The notes under the pieces were generated by a model. The model was not told where the DNA came from and made no database searches. It worked only from the letters and a program-made list of their open reading frames with translations. 64,000 bases of DNA from Algoriphagus sp. (GTDB taxonomy: Bacteria; Bacteroidota; Bacteroidia; Cytophagales; Cyclobacteriaceae), in contig NZ_JABXIN010000001.1 of assembly GCF_013373065.1 (NCBI RefSeq), forward strand, positions 1 through 64,000. The letters are read 5' to 3'. The position numbers and the translations under genes are program-made. Shown here piece after piece: positions 6,812 through 14,773 of this stretch; position 1 is the first letter of the stretch; every line of letters starts with the position of its first letter.

Positions 6812-7465
6812 CTATTTTAGCAAGGCTAATCCCTCTTTTGCCGATGCATCTCCGGGATTGAAAAGCAAAACTTTCTGGAAAAGAACTGTGGCTTCTCTGT
6901 TTTTCTGAAGTTGAAGTTTGTTCCAAGCCAACAACAGTAATCCATCATAATCAAAGGGATAGAGATTCACCACCTTTTCCAAGTAGGGTTCTGCCTTTTC
7001 ATAATTCCCTCGGTTGTAGTATATCAATCCCAGGCGATAATTCACCAAGGTGTTTTGGGGATCGATTTGCAGTATTTTGAGATAAACATCTTCTACTTCC
7101 ATCCATTTCCCCTGAACAGACAGTGGCAGCACCAAACCCAGTTTAGGTTCTATGGCATAGGGCTTCAGACTTACCGCTTTCCGGTAAAATCCCAAAGATT
7201 CCTCTAGCTGTGAAGCTTGGTAATGCAACCAACCCAAGCGGAGGTTCATCTCGTACGAATCAGACTTATAAACAGTCTGAATTGATTGGATAGCCCCTTG
7301 GTAATTACCTGCATTTTCCAAGGAATAACTTTCCTGAAAGGCCTTTTCTAAATCTTCTTGGGCCCAAGCAAAGCTGGAGAATACCAGAAAAGTACCTAGG
7401 AAAAGAATCCCTATTCTAGAGGCTACAGAATGAGAAAATCGATTGAATTCGGCTAAAATTTCCAT
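6812..7465 (-). CDS. Exported TPR-repeat protein
   Basis: 217 residues with an N-terminal signal segment (GILFLGTFLVFSSFAWAQ), then about five tetratricopeptide repeats (for example YQGAIQSIQTVYKSD, YEKAEPYLEKVVNLYP). It should be periplasmic and act as a protein-protein scaffold. It is the last of six tightly linked genes and overlaps the preceding TPR/beta-barrel gene by 13 bp, so translational coupling is likely. It probably assists the outer-membrane partner, which carries its own TPRs at the N-terminus. Confidence 0.8.
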   Translation of the reverse strand: MEILAEFNRFSHSVASRIGILFLGTFLVFSSFAWAQEDLEKAFQESYSLENAGNYQGAIQSIQTVYKSDSYEMNLRLGWLHYQASQLEESLGFYRKAVSLKPYAIEPKLGLVLPLSVQGKWMEVEDVYLKILQIDPQNTLVNYRLGLIYYNRGNYEKAEPYLEKVVNLYPFDYDGLLLLAWNKLQLQKNREATVLFQKVLLFNPGDASAKEGLALLK

Positions 7466-8796
7466 GAGAGGATTGCAGTTAAGGATTGAATAGAATAGGT
7501 TTTTAAATTTTGATCAGAAATAGCAGGGTTAGCTTGGAACCGACTGCTATTTGAAAAATTAGTAAAGTCCAAGGTCAACTTCCAGGAAGGATTAGGAACA
7601 AGCAATAGGCGACCTCCCCAACGCTGATCGATTTGATCAAGTCGATTGAAAACAACAATCCCCTGCTTGCTGATGTAGTTTTGGAGTTCGCCAAAGGTGC
7701 CATAGCCTTCAAGCCAAAGAAAATGAGTGAGTTTCAGTCCAATTTCCTGATTGAAAATTATTCGATTGGTAGATGCAACTCCGTCAAAACCTTGGTTCTG
7801 ATAGCTTAGTACCGAGTAGGTGTAGAGATTTAAATTCCCCATCGGGAAAAAACTCAATTGAAAATCTGTCTGAAGCTGATTTCCTGAATTGATTTTCCCC
7901 ATGTATAAATTGACACCTAAATCAAGGTAATTCAATCGTTTTGACAGCGCCCCAAATACCAACCAATCAAAAGCCTGAACCCGATCAGTTTCCACCTGTG
8001 TTTGGGGACTATTGCCAACAGATTGAATAAATGGAACATCATAAGCGAGCTGCAAAAGATGGCCTCCAAAAGATGCGCTCCACCCTTTTCCAATATAGTA
8101 TCCCGCACTGGCTACGTATTGCCAACTCGTTGAGCCATTGGTCGGGGTTTGAAGTGAAAGTCCGTTTTCCTGAGAGTAATAGAATTGCGTAGCCTGCAGA
8201 TAACTTAACCCTTGATACAAAGTCCATCGAGGACTCAATTGCAGACCCACTCCAAAAAATCCATAATGATGAAATCGAGGAATATATTGATAACCAATTG
8301 CCTCGACATCAGCTGGTCCGGAGAATTCATTAATTATCTGGGGATCAAGAGATCCCGTGTAATTATAAGCGAAATCCAGGCCTCTCAAAGAACCTCTTCG
8401 ATAAGTTTGTGTTTTACGTTTAAGTTCGGATGAAAATACCGAAACCAAAAGTTCCGCCTCTTCCTCTTTTCCAGACCAGAGATAGGAATAATAAAGGTAC
8501 TCCTTCACATATTCCTCCTCTTGATTTACTTCCCGGGCTTTCTCAAAATGAAGGGCAGCTTCTCGATAATTTCCTTTTTCAAAAAAGGCAATTCCTACTC
8601 TCACACGGAGGTAGTAAAAATCAATCTGTCGATTCAATGCCTCTCTGCCCACTTGAATCAATCCTTCCCAATCCTTAGCTTGGAACAAGGAATAGGTTTC
8701 GGAATCAACTCGGGAAACATTCCAATTTTCCTGAGCCTGAATGGTTCCCAAACCAGTAAGGAGAACGAAAAAAAAGAGGATTATTCGCTTTTGCAT
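7453..8796 (-). CDS. Outer-membrane beta-barrel protein with N-terminal TPRs
   Basis: 447 residues. There is a signal peptide (IILFFFVLLTGLGTIQAQ), then TPR-like helices at ~30-135 (YREAALHFEKAREVNQ). From ~150 to the end, alternating aromatic strands are typical of an outer-membrane barrel, ending in ...SLTAILSWKF with a terminal Phe. The TPR-plus-porin design resembles outer-membrane components of export systems and the YaiO-type barrels, although I cannot assign it to a named family. It overlaps the urea-transporter/M23 gene upstream by 16 bp and the TPR gene downstream by 13 bp, so the three are probably made together as an envelope-spanning set. Confidence 0.75.
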   Translation of the reverse strand: MQKRIILFFFVLLTGLGTIQAQENWNVSRVDSETYSLFQAKDWEGLIQVGREALNRQIDFYYLRVRVGIAFFEKGNYREAALHFEKAREVNQEEEYVKEYLYYSYLWSGKEEEAELLVSVFSSELKRKTQTYRRGSLRGLDFAYNYTGSLDPQIINEFSGPADVEAIGYQYIPRFHHYGFFGVGLQLSPRWTLYQGLSYLQATQFYYSQENGLSLQTPTNGSTSWQYVASAGYYIGKGWSASFGGHLLQLAYDVPFIQSVGNSPQTQVETDRVQAFDWLVFGALSKRLNYLDLGVNLYMGKINSGNQLQTDFQLSFFPMGNLNLYTYSVLSYQNQGFDGVASTNRIIFNQEIGLKLTHFLWLEGYGTFGELQNYISKQGIVVFNRLDQIDQRWGGRLLLVPNPSWKLTLDFTNFSNSSRFQANPAISDQNLKTYSIQSLTAILSWKF

Positions 8797-10967
8797 AGGG
8801 CTTTGACGGTTTGTTTTCCTCTTTCAAAAGCAAATGAACGAATGCCACCTGCATCAATCACAAATTCAAACTGACTGACCTCCAGCGTTTTTCCAAAACT
8901 GGACTTCCGAATTGATCCTTTCAAGGAGATAGGGGAATTGGAGAATCCCCGTTGGGCTAGTGGATATCCCAACTCATAATCAGCACGCAAATACTCATAA
9001 AATGGCGCGATAAAATCCTGGATAAAGATTCGCTTGGGGTGAAATATCTGATGAATTGGGAATGTATCCCGCAATTTCAATCCGGGAGTAAACCCAAAGC
9101 TGACTTTGTAGGCAGAAAGAAAAAATAGATAGAGCAGGGATTTCCGCTTGCCTTCAAAATGGGTAAAATGAAGCATCAATTCATCCGTCTTAAAAAAGGC
9201 TTTTGATTTCGTTTTCTCACAATACAAATATTTGTTGAGGAAATAATCCCGCTTGACTTCCCATTCTTCCTCTCCATCGAAGGTCTCAAAACGAATGGTT
9301 TCTCCTACCACAAAGGAAAACGCCTTTTTCACTTCTGGATTAGGTGTCAAAGAAGAAACCACAGCATCTTTGGGAGGATTAGAAGTGGATTGCAACTCTT
9401 CTTTTCCTCCATATCGCATCCAAACATCTGAAATTGGGTAATCCAAAGTAGCCGAACCTATGTAGGGACTGGCTTGAATTTGAAAATGAAGATGGGGATA
9501 GGGGGAATTTCCAGAATTTCCACATTTACCAATGACCTGTCCCTTTTCCACCTCTTGGCCCGGTTTGACCGAAATAGATCCTTTTTTGAGATGGGAAAGT
9601 TTGGAGTATAAAAACTCACCATGTTTAATAATCACTGTATTTCCCCAATTCTCTTCGAGGTTTCGGGTGCCTACCACATTGTCCTCCACATCATTGACTA
9701 CTTTCTCCACAACCCCTTTGGCCGGCGCAAGGATATTTTTATCAAAACAATAATAATCTGAAGGATAATCTCCCTCATTTTTAAAGGTTCTCCCTTCTTC
9801 ATCCTTGATTTCAAAATCCCAGGCATGCTTCCAGTCACCCTTATGGGTGTATTCTCCCTGATGCCCTTGGGTAACAGCCCATTCACCGAAAAAAGGAAGA
9901 TAAATCGGGATTGGGCTATTTTTCCCAAATCTTCTCATAAAGTTCCTGAAGGTGTAGAGGTTTTTTTCAGGGGCATTTTGCTGCCAAAAAATGGTACTTA
10001 GTCCCACTCGATTATCAACCCTAAATTTCAAGGCATACAAAACCAAAAGAGTAGCTAAATTGAATGGAAAAGCATGAACAGGTAGGTAGAAAGAATCTAA
10101 AATTTGCTGCAATGAAACCGTCATCAAAACAACCAATGGAATAACTAGCGAGAGCTGCAGGTAACTGCTTCGGTTGGGAATGATAAAGAAGCCACCTATT
10201 GCGATGGCCGTCAAAATGTAATTGAAACCAATGTAACTGAAGGCAACCTCTGAAAACGGAATCCCTAGGACTCCATAAAATAAATAAGCGATGTAAAAAC
10301 CGATCAAGGAAAGAGTGAAAGCAATTCGGGAATAAACCAATAATCCAAGTGCTGCCACCATCCCCGCTAGGATAGTCTGTTGAAAAAATATAGCGCCCAA
10401 AGAAAGAAAATAGGACCGTAAAGAATCGGGAATTGCCAAGTTCTGAACCCATTCATAGAATACAATCAGGTTTTTCCCTCCCAAGGTGTACAATTCATTC
10501 AAAAAATAAACACCACGCTCACTGAGGCCTAAGGCTTCAAATTGCTTTGCTGCTAACCGAAGCATCCAAAAAATCAAAACAAAGGGAAGGCTGAGAAAAG
10601 GAAGTCCATATTTTCCGAAAACGCCCTCAAAGGCGACAGATAACAGAACTGCTAAAATCCCCGCAAGGAAAACCAGAAGAAATAAAATAATTCCCGGCTC
10701 AAAATAAATCCCCAATCCTACTCCAACCAATAAGGCATTGAAGCCATAAAAGCCCTTCCGGATCAAGCTCTCTTCAAACCCCAGCACTTTTGCTGTTAGC
10801 AATGCAGTGGAAACAGCGAGAAAGCCAGATAATCCAACATAAAGATCTATAAAGGTTACGATAAGCAAAGCGACTCCAAACCCCTTGTGATCGGAGAAAA
10901 AAACTTGGGCGTAGCTATTGGATACGGCTACCCCAAACCATTCGAGTCGCTTGATGAGCTGTTTCAA
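8781..10967 (-). CDS. Urea-transporter-like membrane domain fused to an M23 metallopeptidase
   Basis: 728 residues in three parts. Residues ~30-315 are multi-spanning and contain two copies of the urea transporter signature, GLPFLSLPFVLIFWM (~121) and YLPVHAFPFNLATLL (~294), as expected for the two-repeat UT fold. Residues ~365-500 form an M23 (LytM/lysostaphin-like) peptidase: KHAWDF (~381) as the first metal motif, SHL with the catalytic His (~459), and HLHFQI (~492) as the HxH ligand pair. The first motif is H-x2-D rather than the usual H-x3-D. The last ~225 residues are unassigned. The membrane half may pass urea or a similar small molecule; the peptidase half would cut peptide or cell-wall links. 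It sits mid-operon with 17-bp spacing upstream. Confidence 0.85.
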   Translation of the reverse strand: MKQLIKRLEWFGVAVSNSYAQVFFSDHKGFGVALLIVTFIDLYVGLSGFLAVSTALLTAKVLGFEESLIRKGFYGFNALLVGVGLGIYFEPGIILFLLVFLAGILAVLLSVAFEGVFGKYGLPFLSLPFVLIFWMLRLAAKQFEALGLSERGVYFLNELYTLGGKNLIVFYEWVQNLAIPDSLRSYFLSLGAIFFQQTILAGMVAALGLLVYSRIAFTLSLIGFYIAYLFYGVLGIPFSEVAFSYIGFNYILTAIAIGGFFIIPNRSSYLQLSLVIPLVVLMTVSLQQILDSFYLPVHAFPFNLATLLVLYALKFRVDNRVGLSTIFWQQNAPEKNLYTFRNFMRRFGKNSPIPIYLPFFGEWAVTQGHQGEYTHKGDWKHAWDFEIKDEEGRTFKNEGDYPSDYYCFDKNILAPAKGVVEKVVNDVEDNVVGTRNLEENWGNTVIIKHGEFLYSKLSHLKKGSISVKPGQEVEKGQVIGKCGNSGNSPYPHLHFQIQASPYIGSATLDYPISDVWMRYGGKEELQSTSNPPKDAVVSSLTPNPEVKKAFSFVVGETIRFETFDGEEEWEVKRDYFLNKYLYCEKTKSKAFFKTDELMLHFTHFEGKRKSLLYLFFLSAYKVSFGFTPGLKLRDTFPIHQIFHPKRIFIQDFIAPFYEYLRADYELGYPLAQRGFSNSPISLKGSIRKSSFGKTLEVSQFEFVIDAGGIRSFAFERGKQTVKALCKSE

Positions 10968-10984: not shown

Positions 10985-12343
10985 TTAGAGATCAAATTTT
11001 TTCAAATGATCCGGTAATTCTTCCTGAGAATTCAGCGTTTCCAAGGTTTCTTTTTTCCGGATAATATGTGGTTTCCCTTCCCTGTCCAATAAAATCACAT
11101 TGGGTCGATACGTAATAAACTGCATCCATTGCGTCATATTGTAGGCACCCACCCGACGAATCACAAACTGATCTCCTTTTTTGAGAAGAGGGAACATCAT
11201 ATTTGAACGGATCACATCAATATTCATACATAAGGGACCATAAATAGTGGTGTCCTCCGATTGATCTGACACGGGAGCGATAGGGCGCAAATCATGCTCA
11301 TACCAAAAAGAGGTAAACATCAGGTTGACTCCGGCATCGATAATAGTTGCCCTTCGACCATCGGAAAGTCGTTTGGTAGCGAGGACTGTCCCTGCCAAGT
11401 AACCTGCCTCGTCAATCAAAGCCCTTCCTGTTTCCAATAGCAAGAGTGGCAAATGATCCGGTTTGATATCGGAGCTTATCAAAGCTGAGGTAATGGCTTC
11501 CGCAAAATCATCAAAGGAGGGAGCGGTGTCCGTTCCTGGATAATAGGCTCCTCTTAAGGTGTTTTTTGAGGCAAAACCTCCTCCTAGATCAATGTATTGC
11601 AGGATATGACCATATTTTCGTTCTAACTTAACTGCCAAGCTTGCCAATTTAGTAGCCGCTACTCGGTAAGCGTCTGTACTAAGCATGTAAGTACCTATAT
11701 GGGTGTGCAATCCTAAAAGGTCAAGCCTCTTGCTGGCCATAATTCGATTTAGAGCATCCCAAGCTTCCCCGTTTTCAAAGTTAAATCCAAAGCGATCCCA
11801 TTGAGGATAAATACCCGTATCCATATTTACCCGGATGGCGACTTTTGGGCGTTCGTCCAACTCCTTACTTAGATGAATCAATTCATAGAGTTCATCAAAA
11901 TGGTCAATATGAATAAGTGAATGATTTTGGATAGCAATTCTTAAATCCTCCTGGGATTTATCAGGACCATTAAATACGATCAGTTCACCGGGTACCCCAT
12001 TGCTTAAAGCTTTTTGATATTCAAATCCAGATACCACCTCAGCCCAAGCGCCTTCCTGATGAAAAATATTGCAAACTGCATTGAGATAATTGGTTTTATA
12101 GGACCAAGAAAACTGAACCTTTGGATAGCGGGAACTGAAAGCCCTATAGGCTTCTTTGTAGGTTTTTCGAATGGTTTGCTCTGAAATAATAAACAAAGGC
12201 GAGCCAAACTCCTCCAAAAGGGTTTGAATAGAAACCCCATCAATATGGCTGAGTGGTTCCAACCGTCTTGGCATTCCATATTTACTCGGCAATCCCGCAT
12301 TAATTCGCTGGATAATTGGCCGTTCAAAAGTTAGCTTACGCAT
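10985..12343 (-). CDS. Fold-type III PLP enzyme, diaminopimelate/ornithine decarboxylase-like
   Basis: 452 residues with the alanine-racemase-like barrel and C-terminal beta domain of group IV decarboxylases. Visible motifs are the Schiff-base lysine K83 (WSYKTN), GLHTHIGT (~211), phosphate-binding IDLGGGF (~251), LETGR (~303), the interface cysteine motif GPLCMNIDV (~369) and VGAYNM (~398). In diaminopimelate decarboxylase the cysteine motif reads C-E-S/T-x-D; here Glu is replaced by Met, so the substrate probably differs from meso-diaminopimelate. It lies 12 bp after the ATP-grasp gene and 17 bp before the UT-M23 fusion. A role in lysine synthesis is less likely than a decarboxylation or epimerisation step specific to this operon. 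Confidence 0.85.
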   Translation of the reverse strand: MRKLTFERPIIQRINAGLPSKYGMPRRLEPLSHIDGVSIQTLLEEFGSPLFIISEQTIRKTYKEAYRAFSSRYPKVQFSWSYKTNYLNAVCNIFHQEGAWAEVVSGFEYQKALSNGVPGELIVFNGPDKSQEDLRIAIQNHSLIHIDHFDELYELIHLSKELDERPKVAIRVNMDTGIYPQWDRFGFNFENGEAWDALNRIMASKRLDLLGLHTHIGTYMLSTDAYRVAATKLASLAVKLERKYGHILQYIDLGGGFASKNTLRGAYYPGTDTAPSFDDFAEAITSALISSDIKPDHLPLLLLETGRALIDEAGYLAGTVLATKRLSDGRRATIIDAGVNLMFTSFWYEHDLRPIAPVSDQSEDTTIYGPLCMNIDVIRSNMMFPLLKKGDQFVIRRVGAYNMTQWMQFITYRPNVILLDREGKPHIIRKKETLETLNSQEELPDHLKKFDL

Positions 12344-12355
12344 AATGCTTCTAGG

Positions 12356-13402
12356 TTAAAGTTCTCCTCGGGTAGAAAACTGTTCAAATGCTTTCAAATC
12401 ACAAATCATATCATAGGAATAGCGGATAAATAGCTTTCCAACCTCATAGTCCTCAAAAGGCTTCACTTCCTTCCCTAGGGCTAGCAAGACCAATACTTCG
12501 GGAAGATTCTGCCCTGCCGCTACTGCCAAATACACCCAAGCTGGTAAGCGGGGATTAATTTCGATCAAGTACAATTCCTGCTTGGCAGTACGAATCAATT
12601 CCAACTCCATTCCTCCTCGCCATTTGGTTTGGGAAATGACTTGATGTGTTAATTCAAGCATTGCTGGATCTTTCAATGTGATCCCTCCCCAAGCTTTCCC
12701 TTTGTCGGTAATGTAGGTTTTCCGCATGGGCACAGCACCAACGGTATTTCCTCTACCATCTCCCATGGCTACCACGTTAACCTCAGTACCCTTGACAAAT
12801 TCTTGGATGACAATGGGTAGCCCCCATTTTGCCGCGATCTTATTGAAAAAGATAGCTACCTGCTCCCGATCATAGGCGATGTGGGCATCATAAAACTTTC
12901 CTTTTACCACCACAGGATAATCAAACTTTTTTTCGATTTCACGCCAATCGTGCAAACTTGTAATAGGTTCGCTATACGGGACCTTCACATTATATTTTTT
13001 ACCATACTCCGGTAAATTGGATTTGTGGCGTTCCTCAAACTGTTGCAGAGGGGGTAGGAAGGTCCGAATCCCCATTTCTTGAAGGACCCGTTCGGACTTC
13101 ATCACCGTAAATAATTCAGAGTCAAAATTGGGGATCAAGACCTGAATCTGCTCCTGAAAATGGATATATCGAATCCGATCTAAAAAAGGCTCAACTCCGT
13201 CTGAAGGATAGGGAACCTTGTACGTTTTGTCCACCAAATCATGCATGTAAATTCCCGGCTCCAAGTTTTCATAGGCCAGACCTATCACTCGGACATCCAG
13301 TAACTCAGAATCCCTCAATCCTCTAATGACTGGAACGCCAGGCCCCGGACTGTCTATATTATTCAATCCGGAAAGGGCTACTGTAACCTTAATCTTCTCC
13401 AT
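12356..13402 (-). CDS. ATP-grasp ligase (carbamoyl-phosphate-synthase-like)
   Basis: 348 residues of the ATP-grasp superfamily, which activate a carboxylate as acyl phosphate and join it to an amine or thiol. The N-terminal pre-ATP-grasp domain begins VTVALSGLNNIDSPGPG. The central part carries YPVVVKGK and the ATP-contacting IVIQEFVKGTEVNVV, and the metal-binding end is YLIEINPRLPAW. It overlaps the PqqD-like gene by 14 bp and precedes the PLP enzyme by 12 bp. ATP-grasp enzymes paired with a PqqD-fold protein suggest ligation on a carrier or leader peptide, but the substrate is not evident. No biotin-carboxylase or D-Ala-D-Ala ligase signature was clear. Confidence 0.85.
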   Translation of the reverse strand: MEKIKVTVALSGLNNIDSPGPGVPVIRGLRDSELLDVRVIGLAYENLEPGIYMHDLVDKTYKVPYPSDGVEPFLDRIRYIHFQEQIQVLIPNFDSELFTVMKSERVLQEMGIRTFLPPLQQFEERHKSNLPEYGKKYNVKVPYSEPITSLHDWREIEKKFDYPVVVKGKFYDAHIAYDREQVAIFFNKIAAKWGLPIVIQEFVKGTEVNVVAMGDGRGNTVGAVPMRKTYITDKGKAWGGITLKDPAMLELTHQVISQTKWRGGMELELIRTAKQELYLIEINPRLPAWVYLAVAAGQNLPEVLVLLALGKEVKPFEDYEVGKLFIRYSYDMICDLKAFEQFSTRGEL

Positions 13403-13646
13403 CTGCTTCGATTAAGTTCATCTGTTTTAAGGTGGCTACAAAATCATAGAAGTAGCGTTCGAAACTCTCGGAATCCAATTCATATTTTTCGCTGAACTCT
13501 TCCAGAATTTCTTGAAGATCTTTTCCTAATTGAATCAATTGAACGATTTCAAGCCCGGTCGAATTCAGAGAAAAAGAATCTCCTGTCCCCGCATCGAAGA
13601 CAAAACCAGACTCGCTGATGGCGACGTTACTTTTTAGCTTAAGCAT
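13389..13646 (-). CDS. PqqD-like peptide-binding protein
   Basis: 85 residues with the PqqD/RRE pattern: an N-terminal beta region (NVAISESGFVFDAGTGDSFSLNSTG), then helices (IVQLIQLGKDLQEILEEFSEKY) and a C-terminal FVATLKQMNLIE helix. PqqD folds bind leader peptides of ribosomally made natural products and hand them to modifying enzymes. There is no PqqA, PqqC or PqqE here, so PQQ synthesis is excluded. It is the first gene of a six-gene unit and overlaps the ATP-grasp gene by 14 bp. A 26-codon ORF (13739 down to 13659) ends 12 bp before its ATG and is discussed as a possible precursor or leader ORF. Confidence 0.8.
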   Translation of the reverse strand: MLKLKSNVAISESGFVFDAGTGDSFSLNSTGLEIVQLIQLGKDLQEILEEFSEKYELDSESFERYFYDFVATLKQMNLIEADGED

Positions 13647-13816: not shown

Positions 13817-14773
13817 TCATTGAATTCGTTGCATCACAATAGCATGTCCTTTTTGCATAACAGTAACTTGGTTGCAATGGGACAAATGAGTGAATTCATA
13901 GGGTTCGTCTATTGAAAACGAGTGAATGCTATTGTTTTCAAAAATCCCCGAACATTCCAAAACTCCTTCTGGGGAAAATCGAGAGATCCGATATCCATGG
14001 GGTTCTTCCTGCAAGTTGAACCAGGAACCAGCCACCTCACCGGCTAACCATTGGCTTTGGAACGGAATAGATTCAGGTTTGGCAGGCTGAGGTAGCGTAC
14101 CATGAACTGTATCCCAAGAATAGGCTCCTGTGCTGTGATATTTACCGGATGAAACACTCTCGTCGTAGGGAATCAGGTGCTTGTTCATGAGAAGGTCCAC
14201 ATTAGTAATGGGCATGGGCTTAAGGTGCCAAAAGTAATTCAATAGACTTTTTCTCCACCAAGGAAGCTTTGGAGCTCCTGCCAAAAGACCAGTTCTTACA
14301 AAGCGACAACAATTGGTACCATTCAGGGTAAAAGGTCCAAAGGGAATAGAGCCCATTCCCTGCATGGATTTCACTTTTTCAAAAGCAGACTCATAATTCA
14401 CCTCACAATAAGAAGCCGTCAAAGGCCCCATGCCGAATGTCCAAGGGTTCGATTGAATTTCCTGGAGAATTTCCTTGAAATTTTTCAAAGCTTTCCCGTC
14501 CCAGAGTGCGCGAGTCTGAATTTGTAAGGGAGCGTCCGTAGATTCATCACGGATTCGCCCATATTGGTAAGGCGCATGGTAACGTCCGCAATCAAAATAC
14601 CTACAAACTCCCTCCTCTTTTTGGATTAGGACCAAAGAGGCATGCCCTACCCGATAATGGAATTCCTTATTAAATCCAAGAAAGGTCATGGGCTTATCAT
14701 ACCAAGTTCCGGTCTGCTTCCCTACAAATTCCGGCCAGGCTATGGCAATTGCGATTCCAGTTTGAGAAGACAT
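13817..14773 (-). CDS. DUF6695-like protein, possible permuted papain-fold hydrolase
   Basis: 318 residues without a signal peptide. It resembles Bacteroidetes proteins annotated DUF6695. The N-terminal half has FHYRVGHASLVLIQ and RYFDCGRYH, and ~110 residues later LNGTNCCRFVRTGLL. A GH motif followed by an NC..FV motif is the order expected of a circularly permuted NlpC/P60-like cysteine hydrolase, with His before Cys; this is inference. The C-terminal ~90 residues look like a beta-rich accessory part. It follows the fatty acid hydroxylase gene by 32 bp and precedes the PqqD operon by ~170 bp, with no terminator seen between, so it may belong to the same transcript. Confidence 0.6.
   Translation of the reverse strand: MSSQTGIAIAIAWPEFVGKQTGTWYDKPMTFLGFNKEFHYRVGHASLVLIQKEEGVCRYFDCGRYHAPYQYGRIRDESTDAPLQIQTRALWDGKALKNFKEILQEIQSNPWTFGMGPLTASYCEVNYESAFEKVKSMQGMGSIPFGPFTLNGTNCCRFVRTGLLAGAPKLPWWRKSLLNYFWHLKPMPITNVDLLMNKHLIPYDESVSSGKYHSTGAYSWDTVHGTLPQPAKPESIPFQSQWLAGEVAGSWFNLQEEPHGYRISRFSPEGVLECSGIFENNSIHSFSIDEPYEFTHLSHCNQVTVMQKGHAIVMQRIQ

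Follow-up and report, generated by a model that had tools for sequence, protein, structure and literature searches.

Urea transporter (UT) channels are passive and bidirectional, and the M23 zinc peptidases that we can name are all extracytoplasmic enzymes. The ATP-grasp enzyme BtrJ, which pairs with the decarboxylase BtrK, loads the BtrI carrier. BtrI is an 87-aa protein, and BtrK, together with FigC, SbnH, AcsE and MccE, acts on amino acids that are conjugated or bound to a carrier (PMC7857480). The selectivity filter of the Desulfovibrio urea transporter dvUT includes residues E187, T130 and T294 (PMC4357013), and the 3-thiaglutamate pathway is reported to follow a scaffold-peptide logic (PMC9016710). 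Among open-access papers none was found that joins a UT with an M23 domain or that deals with the gene set described here; the component families are known, and the location of the fusion and the gene set appear to be undescribed.

The window, a 64,000-nucleotide stretch of Algoriphagus sp. contig NZ_JABXIN010000001.1 (positions 1 to 64,000), contains such a fusion within a run of six genes transcribed leftwards. The order PqqD, ATP-grasp, decarboxylase, UT-M23, TPR-barrel and TPR protein is conserved across loci, and three of the five gene junctions in the window overlap, by 13-16 nt. The genes and the domains of the fusion are as follows:

13389..13646, minus strand: PqqD-family protein, 85 aa (scores above the TIGR04353 cut-off of NCBIfam)
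12356..13402, minus strand: ATP-grasp ligase, 348 aa (profile matches)
10985..12343, minus strand: LysA-like PLP decarboxylase, 452 aa (closest solved relative an N-citrylornithine decarboxylase)
8781..10967, minus strand: UT-M23 fusion, 728 aa, TTG start, stop included (open reading frame list, Pfam and relatives)
10029..10928, minus strand: UT channel domain of the fusion, residues 14-313 (Pfam, model, Foldseek match to dvUT, loop charges)
9438..9899, minus strand: M23 zinc peptidase domain of the fusion, about residues 357-510 (Pfam; Foldseek matches to LytM, DipM and EnpA)
8784..9437, minus strand: C-terminal beta-rich domain of the fusion, residues 511-728 (model; hydrophobicity)
7453..8796, minus strand: secreted protein with TPR helices and a 14-strand outer-membrane beta-barrel, 447 aa (N-terminus, model, Foldseek)
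6812..7465, minus strand: secreted TPR protein, 217 aa (profile matches, N-terminus)

The UT-M23 fusion is a real single protein with a conserved architecture. Residues 14-313 align with positions 3-291 of the 292-position UT profile (Pfam PF03253, E 5e-62, 210 bits against a cut-off of 25), and residues 410-498 match the M23 profile well above its cut-off (PF01551, E 1e-17, 64 bits); residues 511-728 have neither a Pfam match nor a clear transmembrane segment. An AlphaFold2 model built from an input of 29 sequences has a mean pLDDT of 83.6 and in Foldseek matches dvUT (3me1; TMt 0.86, best 0.87) as well as M23/LytM-type structures. The UT part of the model consists of two inverted halves, each a re-entrant helix followed by five transmembrane helices, giving ten transmembrane and two re-entrant helices, with the signatures LSLPF (125-129) and AFPF (299-302), the second of which is SLPF in most relatives. 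The arrangement read earlier from the letters alone, with two UT signature segments ahead of an M23 domain in one chain, is thus borne out by Pfam, AlphaFold2 and Foldseek.

A scan of GTDB genomes recovered 33 UT-M23 relatives, of which 29 span all or nearly all of the protein. The source records of the relatives are nearly all labelled Bacteroidota or Chlorobiota, with one MAG labelled Alphaproteobacteria. The operon in that MAG (L056) is of the Bacteroidales type and very similar to that of L055, and the bin is possibly misassigned. A UT match is present in 45 of 396 Bacteroidota genomes, 34 of which have the fused form. An alignment search for the ATP-grasp partner in the same 396 genomes returned exactly these 34, and the partner is absent from all of the 11 genomes whose UT matches are solo or weak. 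Among further loci, the ATP-grasp and decarboxylase genes adjoin every fused UT and stand beside none of the solo UTs. The core set comprises the PqqD, ATP-grasp, LysA-like decarboxylase, UT-M23 and TPR proteins, with the TPR-barrel protein a usual extra, and that these form a conserved functional unit is close to certain. One branch has UT-M23 followed by the TPR protein and, after it, a secreted protein (270-300 aa) that no Pfam profile matches; no outer-membrane barrel was recognised in this branch.

Several loci carry additional genes. In seven Bacteroidales loci (L041, L047, L048, L050, L051, L055 and L056) a gene just upstream of PqqD on the same strand (e.g. L056:4066-4668) encodes an AraC helix-turn-helix regulator with a fused N-terminal part of CxCC type that resembles a heavy-metal domain; this hints at regulation linked to metals, the metal-domain match being weak (E 0.29). 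The gene directly upstream of PqqD in the window (13817-14773, same strand) encodes a TseH-like domain (136 bits) with a DUF6695 C-terminus; it is also found near the operon in L032 and not in other relatives. L051 and L044 have a related gene between the decarboxylase and UT-M23, which in L051 belongs to the IF-2B family (L051:7002-7955).

Conservation was assessed in an alignment of 62 fused proteins of at least 600 aa, including a few near duplicates (e.g. L032 and L094). The likely zinc ligands and the catalytic residues of the M23 domain, each conserved in 62/62 sequences, are:

9843..9845, minus strand: H375, likely first zinc ligand (H-x8-D)
9816..9818, minus strand: D384, second zinc ligand
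9591..9593, minus strand: H459, catalytic His, in an SHL motif
9486..9494, minus strand: H492-L-H494, the HxH motif, with a catalytic His and the third zinc ligand

The sequence-only reading had taken H381-x2-D384 as the first metal motif and a possible sign of an altered zinc site, a suggestion that the alignment does not support: H375, D384, H459, H492 and H494 are invariant and residue 381 is variable (H in 41, Y in 15, F in 3). In the YAxDF motif typical of M23 enzymes, H381 falls at the Y. The spacing between the first His and a YAxDF-like motif downstream of it varies among other M23 proteins of the order, as in SHKKQYALDF (L014) and HQGAYQYGYDF (H-x8-D, L009), and H381 therefore corresponds to the usual Tyr/Phe site. 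With the H, D and H zinc ligands and the catalytic His residues of M23 enzymes all present across the 62 proteins, the domain looks catalytically intact.

The peptidase probably faces the cytosol. Lys and Arg residues average 10.4 per protein in the loops expected, from known UTs, on the cytosolic side against 3.3 in outer loops across the 62 fused UTs; in short loops only, the values are 4.82 and 0.26, with the inner count exceeding the outer in 62/62. Six solo UTs of the phylum have the same sign of loop charge. The fused proteins contain no transmembrane segment beyond residue 335, bar one borderline value in one sequence. Because the charges indicate an N-in/C-in arrangement and no transmembrane segment separates UT from M23, the M23 domain is predicted to be cytosolic, and the same placement follows from the basic stretch after the last UT helix (K314, R316) and from the lack of a clear hydrophobic segment either between UT and M23 or after M23. 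As a control, the K/R-rich loop rule places the M23 domains of three membrane-anchored relatives from other genomes in the periplasm. Loop charge and helix count thus predict a cytosolic domain in place of the extracytoplasmic location of M23 family members, and on these grounds we hold the cytosolic placement to be likely, with good confidence. It would be an exception, since all M23 enzymes known to us are extracytoplasmic. The earlier reading had argued that the cytosolic C-terminus of known UTs would put the peptidase inside the cell, which agrees with these results, and the topology and structure predictions it had proposed returned the canonical UT pattern with M23 in the cytosol. It had left a choice between an unusual topology and a cytosolic peptidase; the canonical charge pattern disfavours the former and favours the latter, with which the place of the PqqD gene in the all-or-none operon also agrees. 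In one relative (L099:7944-10195) UT and M23 lie in two frames, with the break at an A-run after PEK; this split was dropped as evidence for a cytosolic M23 because such a break looks like a frameshift or sequencing error.

The channel has lost the residues of the urea filter. The position of dvUT E187 is Ala in 45 and Leu in 11 fused UTs and another residue in the remainder, with Glu or Gln in 0/62, and it is Glu or Gln in all six solo UTs. At the filter Thr positions the solo UTs keep Thr and the fused UTs have mostly Ser, or Ser/Val/Ala, and in the window protein the filter residues are A192, S126 and A299. The fused UT belongs to the UT family by full-length profile match and fold, yet it does not have the outer Glu/Gln and middle Thr pair that define a urea filter, and it scores 127.7 bits against a cut-off of 274.6 for the NCBIfam equivalog urea_trans_yut. 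Three of the six solo UTs lie near urease genes (L128 and L130 in urease operons, L129 near a urease alpha gene), and a genome search found no urease alpha subunit in the host of the fusion. Judged by its residues, the fused UT probably does not function as a urea channel, despite its fold.

The decarboxylase has its best matches with FigC (191 bits), DAPDC (154 bits) and BtrK (106 bits), and shares with FigC a CM motif where DAPDC has CE, that is, Met for Glu after the catalytic Cys. Its curated LysA score is 219 bits, against 297.9 and a Cys-Glu motif for that family, and it reaches 219.3 bits against the 500 curated for FslC. A separate LysA-like homologue is encoded elsewhere in the host genome. 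Since it falls below the LysA cut-off, has Met for Glu and is accompanied by a second homologue, the operon enzyme is, on sequence criteria, not the housekeeping decarboxylase.

The PqqD-family protein scores 42.5 bits against 35 for TIGR04353 and 38.8 against 23.4 for Pfam PqqD, so that the operon has the PqqD/RRE protein expected of a RiPP cluster. No RiPP precursor was recognised: in 68 regions, there is no conserved small open reading frame within 1.2 kb of the operon. A substrate in the form of a PqqD-bound peptide, as proposed in the earlier reading, stays a guess because the flanks lack a precursor peptide gene. A LysW-like carrier tail on PqqD was considered and rejected because the C-termini vary among PqqD proteins and are not conserved. 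Hydrophobic N-termini are absent from the PqqD, ATP-grasp and decarboxylase proteins and present in the TPR and barrel proteins at most loci. The TPR-barrel protein was modelled because Pfam gave only weak TPR matches; the model (pLDDT 89.2) has TPR-like helices and 14 strands, and Foldseek matches its fold to FadL, OmpG, PelB and BcsC, with low identity to FadL and OmpG.

We tentatively propose that the operon encodes a system that makes a small molecule derived from an amino acid and exports it across the cell envelope, a reading that as a full chain has somewhat less than an even chance of being right. In the cytosol the ATP-grasp enzyme would link an amino acid with a carrier or another group, the PqqD protein may serve as holder of the substrate or of a peptide, and the LysA-like decarboxylase would, by analogy with FigC/FslC and BtrK, decarboxylate the amino acid in its conjugated form. 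The UT channel is predicted to tether the M23 domain to the inner membrane on its cytosolic side, where M23 could hydrolyse an amide bond and so release the product next to the channel; the product would then leave through the UT-fold pore with its changed filter and, beyond it, by way of the periplasmic TPR protein and the outer-membrane TPR-barrel protein. The chemistry, the sequence of reactions and the direction in which the product moves are all hypothetical. The elements to which the data speak directly are the fusion, the apparently intact active site, the cytosolic orientation predicted by the charge rule, the all-or-none core genes and the lost urea-filter residues, and a urea-sized pore, which limits the size of any product, counts against the mechanism. 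That the cytosolic M23 domain couples product release to membrane passage, in a trans-envelope metabolite system not described before, is a more doubtful proposal.

Other arrangements can be envisaged. The UT could be flipped in this family, so that a periplasmic M23 domain trims peptidoglycan or opens a passage for envelope components; this would accord with the extracytoplasmic action of the M23 enzymes known to us, with the predicted periplasmic location of the nearest stand-alone M23 relatives and with the secreted TPR and barrel partners. The C-in loop charges in 62/62 proteins, the even number of transmembrane helices in the model, the lack of an extra segment ahead of M23 and three enzyme partners without signal sequences all argue against it, and we regard it as quite improbable. 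A chance joining of an ordinary urea channel with an anchored housekeeping hydrolase would explain the strong Pfam matches of both domains, but hardly the changed filter residues, a host genome without urease or the strict co-occurrence with the partner families, and is very improbable.

The data are compatible with either direction of flow, and in an importing system the barrel and UT would admit a small amide or peptide, which the cytosolic M23 would cleave and the decarboxylase and ATP-grasp enzymes process further. UT channels are generally understood to pass solutes passively both ways, and the barrel fold resembles the porins FadL and OmpG at low identity; an ATP-consuming ligase with a PqqD partner, however, suits biosynthesis better, and PelB and BcsC likewise combine TPR helices with a barrel for export, making import unlikely. 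Alternatively, PqqD could bind a ribosomal peptide encoded elsewhere, which the ATP-grasp enzyme and decarboxylase modify and from which M23 cuts a fragment that exits by the UT pore. The PqqD score above the NCBIfam cut-off fits such a RiPP-type route, as does the scaffold-peptide logic reported for the 3-thiaglutamate pathway (PMC9016710), but none of the 68 regions has a conserved small open reading frame beside the operon and a larger product would be too big for the pore, so that this route is distinctly unlikely.

If the export reading is right, the gene set, carried by about 9% of the sampled Bacteroidota genomes, would mark a product not described before, and the fusion would be the first known case both of a cytosolic M23 enzyme and of a UT-fold channel coupled to a hydrolase. 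The annotation 'urea transporter' in Bacteroidota often names another protein, since the fused form accounts for 34 of the 45 UT-positive genomes.

Set against known systems, the fused UT shares with dvUT and SLC14 channels (PF03253) the complete two-fold inverted-repeat fold, the LxxPF-type signatures and the N-in/C-in charges, and differs in having Ala or Leu for the outer Glu/Gln, mostly Ser or Ser/Val for the filter Thr, an attached M23 domain and no urease partner. The peptidase has the H...D...HxH zinc site and second catalytic His of M23/LytM enzymes (PF01551), but it is predicted to be cytosolic, is borne by a channel and is followed by an extra C-terminal beta domain. The secreted TPR helices followed by a barrel resemble PelB and BcsC, to which Foldseek also matches them, although here the barrel has 14 strands, the TPR part is short and the operon has no polysaccharide synthase. 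The closest solved relative of the decarboxylase is the FigC/FslC N-citrylornithine decarboxylase, and the combination of an ATP-grasp ligase, an alanine-racemase-fold decarboxylase and a small protein of ~85 aa parallels the BtrK/BtrJ pairing. Compared with the BtrK and FigC systems, the operon has a PqqD-family protein in place of an acyl carrier, lacks siderophore synthetase and aminoglycoside genes, and adds membrane and outer-membrane parts.
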